A stretch of 39,733 bases of DNA. It comes from a virus. The position numbers and the translations under genes were made by a program. Position 1 is the first letter of the stretch; each line of letters starts with the position of its first letter. A model generated the notes under the pieces. The model was not told the DNA's origin. It saw nothing but the letters and a program-made list of their open reading frames with translations, and ran no database searches. The stretch covers positions 1-39,733 of the IMG/VR virus record IMGVR_UViG_3300031772_007143; one strand, written 5' to 3'. This document shows, one piece after another, positions 2,876-4,417 of the stretch.

Positions 2876-3146
2876 AACGCCTCATCCTGTTCCCGTCCAC
2901 GCGCGCGGCCAACTCCACCTTGGTGTCCGTCCACACCTGGCGCACGATCGTCAGCGCCCCCTTCTGCCCCATCCGGGACACGGCCTCGTCCAGAACGCGG
3001 AACACCGGCTGCGCCGGCCCACCCGGCGACGGCTCGAACTGGACGTCCACGGCGGGCCGGCCGCGCAGACCCATCAGCCCGCTCATCCGCAGGCTCGCCC
3101 ACTCGACGGCCTCGACCAGCAGGTCCTCATTGAGCAGTGTGATCAT
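2838..3146 (-). CDS. Hypothetical protein, 102 aa
   Basis: The start overlaps the methyltransferase stop as ATGA, which supports translation. The first 75 residues form a plausible globular mix of helix and strand. The last 20 or so (RMRRYGSAKEKAGTPG) overlap the next gene and look less ordered. No known family recognised. Confidence 0.5.
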   Translation of the reverse strand: MITLLNEDLLVEAVEWASLRMSGLMGLRGRPAVDVQFEPSPGGPAQPVFRVLDEAVSRMGQKGALTIVRQVWTDTKVELAARVDGNRMRRYGSAKEKAGTPG

Positions 3147-4408
3147 CGGGGCGGCTCCTCCGCGTCCGGGTCGAACACCAGGTCGTCCTGGTTCATCACC
3201 GTCGTGACGGCCTTCAACTCACCGCCGAACACATTGTTCCGCGACCAGTCGACGCCCATGAACAACCGCAATTGCGCCCGCCCCCCGAACTGCGTCTGCA
3301 ACGCCGGGGGAATGGGGATCACGATCTCCCACGCACCTGGCGGGCAGGGCGTGGGCGGGGGCAAGGCCACGACCGGCCGCTCTTGCGGGGGCTCGGGCAG
3401 CGGCACACCCGGCAACGGGATCTGCTTGGCCTTCTTGGGCGTGGGCGGGACCGGCGGCAACTCCACCGGATCCATCTCATCCGGTACAATCGCCGGTTCA
3501 CCATCTGGTGTTTCCACCCGATCAACCTTCACTGGATTGCGCTTCTTCGCCACCATCTTCAACTCCTCCATCACAGCTTGAATAAACACCGACGCTACTT
3601 GCGGGACGATCGCGTTCCCGTAGGCGCGCAATTTGCCCACCCTATTGGATACCCCATGAGCCAACGGGAATGATCCGGGTTCAACTGGCCGGGACTTCCC
3701 GTCGCGGCAGGGAACCCAATCGCAGTTAGACCAGCTGCCCCCGGCAACCGATCCGATCCCTGCCCTGGCCCACCCTTTGGCCCGTCCTGCTGGCAAGGGG
3801 TTGGCCACGATGCTAATTTCGCCACCCCCGGCAACTTCAACACCCGCTTGTCGTGATCCCCCCGACTGTACGCGTACTGAGAACCCGTCGCGGCGTTGAC
3901 CACCGGAGATGGCCACGAACCACAACCGTTGTCGGATGTGCGGCGCACCGACGCCCGCCGCGCACAAATCCGCCGCCCTGACGGCGTAATCCGCTCCTTC
4001 CAGGTCAGCGCAAACAGCGTCGAACCAGCGGAGTCCATCAGGACTCGCAACCTGCTCGCCAAAGATGATTGCAGGGCGGCATTGGGCGATGAGCTTGAAC
4101 CAGGCAGGCCACAGGTGTCGGTCATCCGCAAACCCCTTATGCTTACCCGCCGCACTAAACGGCTGGCATGGGCACGAGCCGGTCCAGACCGGAACGTCCA
4201 CCGGCCAACCCGCCATCTGCAACGCCAGGTCCCAACCACCGATGCCGGCGAAGAAGTGACACCTAGTATAATCCCCCAGCTCGGCCGGCGTGACATCCAA
4301 AATGCTGCGCCCGTCCACCCGGCCGGCCAATAGATGGTCAGCCTCAATCAAGTTAACCAACCACTGCGCCGGGTACGCCGCATTCTCGTTGTAGTACGCA
4401 CCCGGCAT
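3143..4408 (-). CDS. DNA cytosine-C5 methyltransferase with C-terminal Pro-rich tail and extra domain
   Basis: Residues 1-280 are a Dcm-type C5 methyltransferase that transfers a methyl group from S-adenosylmethionine to cytosine in DNA. Motif I is FFAGIGGWDLAL (about 52-63), motif IV has the catalytic cysteine in GSCPCQPFS (77-85), the ENV motif is GEQV, motif VIII is IRQRLWFVA, and motif X is YGNAIVPQVA. After residue 284 comes a Pro-rich linker and an unrecognised domain (PGAWEIVIPIPPAL, FMGVDWSRNNVF). The ATG at 4408 is preferred over GTG at 4417 because GAGG precedes it. An ATG at 3556 with a strong GGAGGAG could start the C-terminal part separately. It probably protects phage DNA from host restriction; no matching nuclease is seen. 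Confidence 0.85.
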   Translation of the reverse strand: MPGAYYNENAAYPAQWLVNLIEADHLLAGRVDGRSILDVTPAELGDYTRCHFFAGIGGWDLALQMAGWPVDVPVWTGSCPCQPFSAAGKHKGFADDRHLWPAWFKLIAQCRPAIIFGEQVASPDGLRWFDAVCADLEGADYAVRAADLCAAGVGAPHIRQRLWFVAISGGQRRDGFSVRVQSGGSRQAGVEVAGGGEISIVANPLPAGRAKGWARAGIGSVAGGSWSNCDWVPCRDGKSRPVEPGSFPLAHGVSNRVGKLRAYGNAIVPQVASVFIQAVMEELKMVAKKRNPVKVDRVETPDGEPAIVPDEMDPVELPPVPPTPKKAKQIPLPGVPLPEPPQERPVVALPPPTPCPPGAWEIVIPIPPALQTQFGGRAQLRLFMGVDWSRNNVFGGELKAVTTVMNQDDLVFDPDAEEPPR

Positions 4409-4417
4409 CGACCTCAC

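Follow-up and report, generated by a model that had tools for sequence, protein, structure and literature searches.

A second conserved frame within phage C5-cytosine methyltransferase genes is a candidate recognition subunit

In the 39,733-nucleotide stretch of viral DNA analyzed here (IMG/VR record IMGVR_UViG_3300031772_007143, hereafter the window), one C5-cytosine methyltransferase gene on the minus strand is open in two frames over the same DNA, which raises the question of whether the second frame is a gene of its own, a shadow of the first, or a part of it reached by frameshifting. The original prediction, made from the sequence alone, had placed all C5-methyltransferase motifs in the main frame, here called F1, and had likened the second open frame, here called F2, to the target-recognition part of such enzymes, offering overprinting and a switch of frame as explanations.

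F1 (3143..4417, on the minus strand like all features below) encodes 424 amino acids with matches to PF00145 (7e-17) and phrog_363 (1.3e-76), and corresponds to the large, or alpha-like, chain of a C5-cytosine methyltransferase. It has motif I (HFFAGIGG, 4235..4258; conserved in alignments A3 and A5), motif IV with the catalytic Cys (GSCPCQPFS, 4154..4180; conservation of 90% or more at almost every column of the family alignments), a motif VI that reads EQV, not ENV, across the whole family, and, also from the family alignments, motifs VIII (GAPHIRQRL, 3923..3949) and X (YGNAIVPQVA, 3593..3622). Motifs I, IV (PCQ), VI, and VIII, which mark the PF00145 catalytic domain, are thus all present, but whereas PF00145 has both IX and X in the catalytic chain, here X lies in F1 and IX in F2. 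The view that the main frame carries the full set of motifs stands for I-VIII and X and fails for IX. A model of F1 residues 1-292 has M.HaeIII and M.HhaI as structural matches and is good at residues 1-175 and at the motif X helix; residues 176-227 (3737..3892), at the place of the recognition domain, are predicted to be unfolded (pLDDT 32-46). The homologous part of F1 covers approximately 4417-3560, and the frame then runs on without a stop into a 137-amino-acid proline-rich extension (3556-3143) with no match in Pfam. An internal ATG at 3556 has GGAG just before it, and the extension from this point could be a separate gene downstream, either joined to the methyltransferase or also given its own start.

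F2 (3595..4347) consists of 250 codons without a stop, read at +1 relative to F1 and lying wholly inside it, from just upstream of motif I to motif X, and the three phrases that the original prediction had quoted from it are present exactly. The third frame of the minus strand has many stops, as does the F2 frame beyond 4347-3595. The TTG at 4347, listed as the start, was assigned mechanically; it is the ATG at 4296 (4294..4296), within the F1 codons for D41-V42, that occupies the conserved start position. As had been proposed, both translations were searched against databases, and F2 has its own match, independent of those of F1: the phrog_1008 profile, annotated as DNA methyltransferase, with an E value of 6.6e-24 over positions 45-284 of 329. 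No match to F2 was found in Pfam or NCBIfam, nor between the F2 profile and solved structures. The F2 model is poor overall (pLDDT 57, pTM 0.22), being confident for a helix, a hairpin, and, in the motif IX region, a pair of short helices, and a Foldseek search with this poor model gave no meaningful match. Poor modeling of F2 alone and the lack of a fold match might be expected if the chain folds with a partner. The best-predicted part of F2, with block means of 60-90, is a conserved helix plus beta-hairpin core (SSLASRLRxxxxSxGSTLFxLTWKxRxTPSGRxxxxxRASxRRTS, 3937..4086).

To see the locus in its family, 131 relative loci were fetched: 45 chosen with F2, 80 chosen with F1 alone, and 6 phage records. 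Both frames are open and homologous to F1 and F2 of the window in all 131, and the offset of F2 is +1 in all 132 genes. Hundreds of related phages and prophages have the overlap, mostly annotated as one gene; its distribution includes Escherichia N15, Kagunavirus, Klebsiella, Xanthomonas, and Paenibacillus phages, while actinophages have a partial form in which F2 lacks motif IX. No F2 gene was found on its own without F1. Both frames are annotated in phage K1ind2 (ORF29, "C-specific methylase," with the nested ORF28, "Mte8-like"), in PhiXhv-28 (both as DNA methyltransferase), in Paenibacillus phage Lily, where one is a "g62 internal gene," and in Bloom; the annotation of Cr-LKS3 includes F2 only. 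The origin of the name "Mte8-like protein," given by the depositors to F2 of K1ind2, was searched for and not found.

The GC content of the set is 53-71%, a range in which extra open frames are common, so F2 could in principle be open and similar between phages merely through the conservation of F1 and this GC richness. The pattern, however, holds down to 42% GC, and stop codons argue against such a shadow. Under a null in which codons are sampled from the codon usage of each gene, F1 residues 61-240 of the 132 genes should contain about 360 F2-frame stops, and none is observed. Just before the F2 start (residues 24-34) there are 77 against 55 expected, and past its end (residues 277-285) 121 against 55, so that the depletion coincides with F2. 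The same holds for the set selected with F1 only, whose 62 distinct genes have no F2 stop between motif IV and motif IX (151 expected). In contrast, chromosomal PF00145 genes, which by inspection are mostly canonical and carry motif IX in F1, have no such depletion, with 254 stops in the F2 frame versus 267 expected. In each of 22 tests in which F1 was recoded synonymously, using profiles trained on sequences of <60% identity, the F2 profile score fell from 252-406 bits to at most 206.

Substitution patterns, the comparison of codon positions that the original prediction had called for, also bear on F2. When first-position differences are divided by third-position differences over 29 disjoint pairs, the ratio is ~0.35 before F2, rises to 1.05-2.2 across residues 166-255, and is 0.44 after F2. 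In residues 106-165, the class values are 0.147 for changes synonymous in both frames, 0.042 for those synonymous in F1 and nonsynonymous in F2, 0.021 for the converse, and 0.008 for those nonsynonymous in both; both frames are constrained here. The corresponding values in residues 166-255 are 0.122, 0.046, 0.066, and 0.044, and F2 is constrained while F1 hardly is: given a change in F2, changes that are silent in F1 are about as frequent as those that alter it (0.046 and 0.044), indicating little constraint of its own on F1. Amino acid identity over the same residues is 0.737 for F2, 0.675 for F1, and 0.664 for the third frame. A shadow frame is thus ruled out at the sequence level by four independent tests (the codon-usage-matched nulls, the bounded stop depletion, the recoding, and the substitution classes) together with the chromosomal control, and we give it next to no credence. 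The original prediction had named two outcomes that would speak against overprinting, an absence of database matches to the second frame and an absence of selection in it; both were looked for, and F2 was found to match phrog_1008 and to be under purifying selection. With the independent family matches and the annotation of both ORFs in four phages, overprinting is borne out, and it is near certain, as judged from these sequence comparisons, that F2 is a second conserved coding sequence under purifying selection (a beta-like chain).

Could F2 instead be reached from F1? In a programmed frameshift, translation would start in F1, shift to F2 near motif VIII for the cassettes described below and motif IX, and return to F1 for motif X. 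The functional parts do alternate in this order, with motifs I-VIII belonging to F1, the cassettes and IX to F2, and X to F1 again, but two shifts would be required, F1 is open all the way, and F2, starting at its own ATG a long way ahead of motif VIII, is open and depleted of stops, with 60-100 open codons preceding any plausible switch point. F2 also has start signals of its own. In the family of the window, an ATG with a Shine-Dalgarno 4-mer lies within the F1 RSIxDV codons in 68 of 131 genes, where 20.7 are expected, and control windows have no meaningful excess of this pair over expectation; the window's own ATG at 4296 is without a strong Shine-Dalgarno sequence. In three distant groups, the F2 start lies instead at F1 D[DE]RHLW, with an ATG in 42 of 48 (23.5 expected), 24 of 26 (12.0 expected), and 68 of 69 genes (34.7 expected), a site at which the window family shuns ATG (14 of 78 versus 29.4 expected). 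A start codon and Shine-Dalgarno sequence are therefore conserved beyond the needs of F1 at two alternative places in different subfamilies, which supports separate initiation and argues against frameshifting. In a frameshift fusion, the second frame is needed only past the slip site and has no start of its own, and F2 does not conform to this. The start signals and the upstream openness reject frameshifting as the main mode, and the switch of frame suggested at the outset is, in our judgment, quite improbable.

What F2 might contribute is suggested by its contents. It contains, in most cases, one to six units that begin W-P-T-P ("WPTPxxxD" cassettes), and unit types recur at differing places and in differing order and number across phages. 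The window has two, cassette 1 (WPSPVVNAATGSQYAYSRGDHDKRVLKLPGVAKLAS, 3808..3915), a type found elsewhere at other positions, and cassette 2 (WPTPCQQDGPKGGPGQGSDRLPGAA, 3733..3807), whose CQQDGPxGGP unit occurs in 34 loci at the first, second, or third place. As single-linkage clustering lumped most cassettes into one cluster, recurrence was counted by signature. Units that recur in shifting places form the pattern of exchangeable recognition modules, and by sequence the F2 cassettes look like such modules. The cassettes together with motif IX agree with the target-recognition character that had been ascribed to the second frame.

Motif IX of the window (QLNPDHSRWLMGYPIGW, 3637..3687; LNPxHSRWLMGYPxxW) is downstream of the cassettes. 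The 20 actinophage-type methyltransferases of A6 have both motif IX (LSPxFVEWMMGLPxGWVT) and motif X in F1. In profile comparison (hhalign), F1 aligns to motifs I-VIII of A6, and GQLNPAHSRWLMGYPPxW of F2 aligns to exactly the stretch of their in-frame motif IX (P=91, E=1e-6). Motif IX is in F2 in 69 of 74 Lily-like and 51 of 55 C72C1-like genes and never in F1. The JKSyngboy-like genes are the reverse, with motif IX in F1 in 71 of 78 and never in F2. Nevertheless, F2 of these actinophage-type genes (L218, L215, L219, and L368-L447) stays open between motif IV and a point some 45 codons short of motif IX, with 15 stops against 347 expected, and that of JKSyngboy still matches phrog_1008. As F2 is kept even though motif IX is in F1, there seem to be two forms of F2, one with cassettes and motif IX and one with cassettes only.

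The motif layout favors a two-subunit methyltransferase of which F2 would be the second subunit, a reading to which we assign a probability of roughly 0.8. In this scheme, one gene region would yield two proteins. F1, the catalytic chain, would bind the cofactor, carry out catalysis, and contribute motif X. F2 would have a start of its own inside the F1 gene, on the shared message, and would be read at +1, contributing an interface or core segment, between one and six exchangeable recognition cassettes, and motif IX. The two would combine as a single active methyltransferase that has one target site or several, comparable to the polypeptides of M.EcoHK31I, and the cassettes would decide the target sequences. 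Translation of F2, its binding to F1, the need for it in activity, and target choice by the cassettes are all inferred from sequence. Points that weigh against this scheme are the poor F2 model with its lack of a fold match, the predicted location of the M.EcoHK31I recognition domain in the large chain, the weak Shine-Dalgarno context of the F2 ATG in the window, and the failure to find F2 apart from F1. F2 may alternatively be a real overprinted protein with another job, such as anti-restriction or regulation, beside an F1 that is a complete methyltransferase alone. F1 does read through to motif X, F2 has no fold match, and the actinophage type retains F2 although its F1 has motif IX; in the window family, however, motif IX is absent from F1 and present in F2, the recognition region of F1 is barely constrained and predicted to be unfolded, and the cassette architecture resembles recognition modules, all of which make a separate job for F2 unlikely, if less so than frameshifting. 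For the two-subunit enzyme, no restriction enzyme gene was recognized nearby, and the genes upstream encode a RuvC-like protein, an SbcC-like ATPase, and RecA. The simplest role would therefore be that of an orphan phage enzyme with a protective function, which would probably shield phage DNA from host restriction.

How does this arrangement compare with known enzymes? The small chain of M.EcoHK31I (YGGCCR) was reportedly found by Lee, Kam and Shaw in 1995 to be nested in the large-chain gene in another frame, just as F2 is nested in F1. Multispecific phage C5-methyltransferases of the SPbeta and phi3T type have several exchangeable recognition modules per enzyme in the frame of the catalytic part, whereas here the modules are in an overlapping frame. 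M.EcoHK31I, described as naturally split (PMC3439449), comprises two polypeptides, of which the large chain has motifs I-VIII and X and the smaller only motif IX (PMC3404938), and in this motif layout it is like F1 and F2. Its recognition domain is predicted in the large chain (PMC3404938), whereas here that region of F1 is unfolded in the model and F2 is the constrained frame. F2 differs further in its multiple shuffled cassettes, and the present system in being phage borne, very widely distributed, and with no restriction enzyme recognized next to it. M.AquI (CYCGRG) is likewise a split C5-methyltransferase whose two chains form one enzyme (PMC3404938), but it is split in the variable region with IX and X both in the second chain, whereas here X is in F1 and the genes overlap fully. 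F2 of the window and of distant phages belongs to PHROG 1008 and PHROG 31772, both "DNA methyltransferase," entries that are silent on an origin inside PHROG 363-type genes and on being noncatalytic.

Given the precedent of M.EcoHK31I, a nested two-chain arrangement is itself of a known kind; what appears to be new is its breadth across phages, cassettes with selection in the overlapping frame, and the change of frame of motif IX between branches. A literature search, partial and covering few subscription papers, found no nested frame in phage methyltransferases, which is weak evidence of novelty. That nearly the whole phage C5-methyltransferase branch (enterobacterial, Paenibacillus, and actinobacterial) is an ancient overprinted two-protein system, with specificity cassettes in the overlapping frame and a motif IX that has moved between frames, is to us an even bet. 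With specificity cassettes overlapping the catalytic chain, each exchanged cassette would have to be open in both frames. If the two-subunit reading is right, many phage and prophage "DNA cytosine methyltransferase" records are half an enzyme, recoding the annotated frame for cloning silently destroys the other half, and prediction of phage methyltransferase specificity belongs in the other frame. The family would also be a large natural set of fully overlapping genes whose two proteins probably act in the same reaction, and the alternate placement of a motif between frames would allow direct tests of how overprinted genes arise and are maintained.

Several loci depart from the common form. 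Two prophage loci (L206:3874-5085 and L209:3739-4767) have a stop within F1 and an intact F2, and may represent decay, a fault in the assembly, or a loss confined to the catalytic chain. Krischvirus LF73P4 (L223) has an F1 that is interrupted past motif VIII; further downstream, motifs X and IX are each shifted over by one frame, as a one-base indel would produce, and the relative offset of both frames is preserved. F2 of Klebsiella phage KpV2811 (L128:1450-2808) and of an unrelated metagenomic phage contig (L024:2983-4830) runs, uninterrupted by a stop, into an in-frame endonuclease VII domain (PF02945, 6e-24 and 5e-23, respectively), possibly as F2-endonuclease fusions or as chance read-through into the frame of the next gene. 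Lastly, a distant methyltransferase on Leptospira interrogans plasmid p2 (L449), at 48% GC, has an F2 that is open over nearly the whole gene, with the C-terminal end LNPMWVEWLMGWPLGWTDL.
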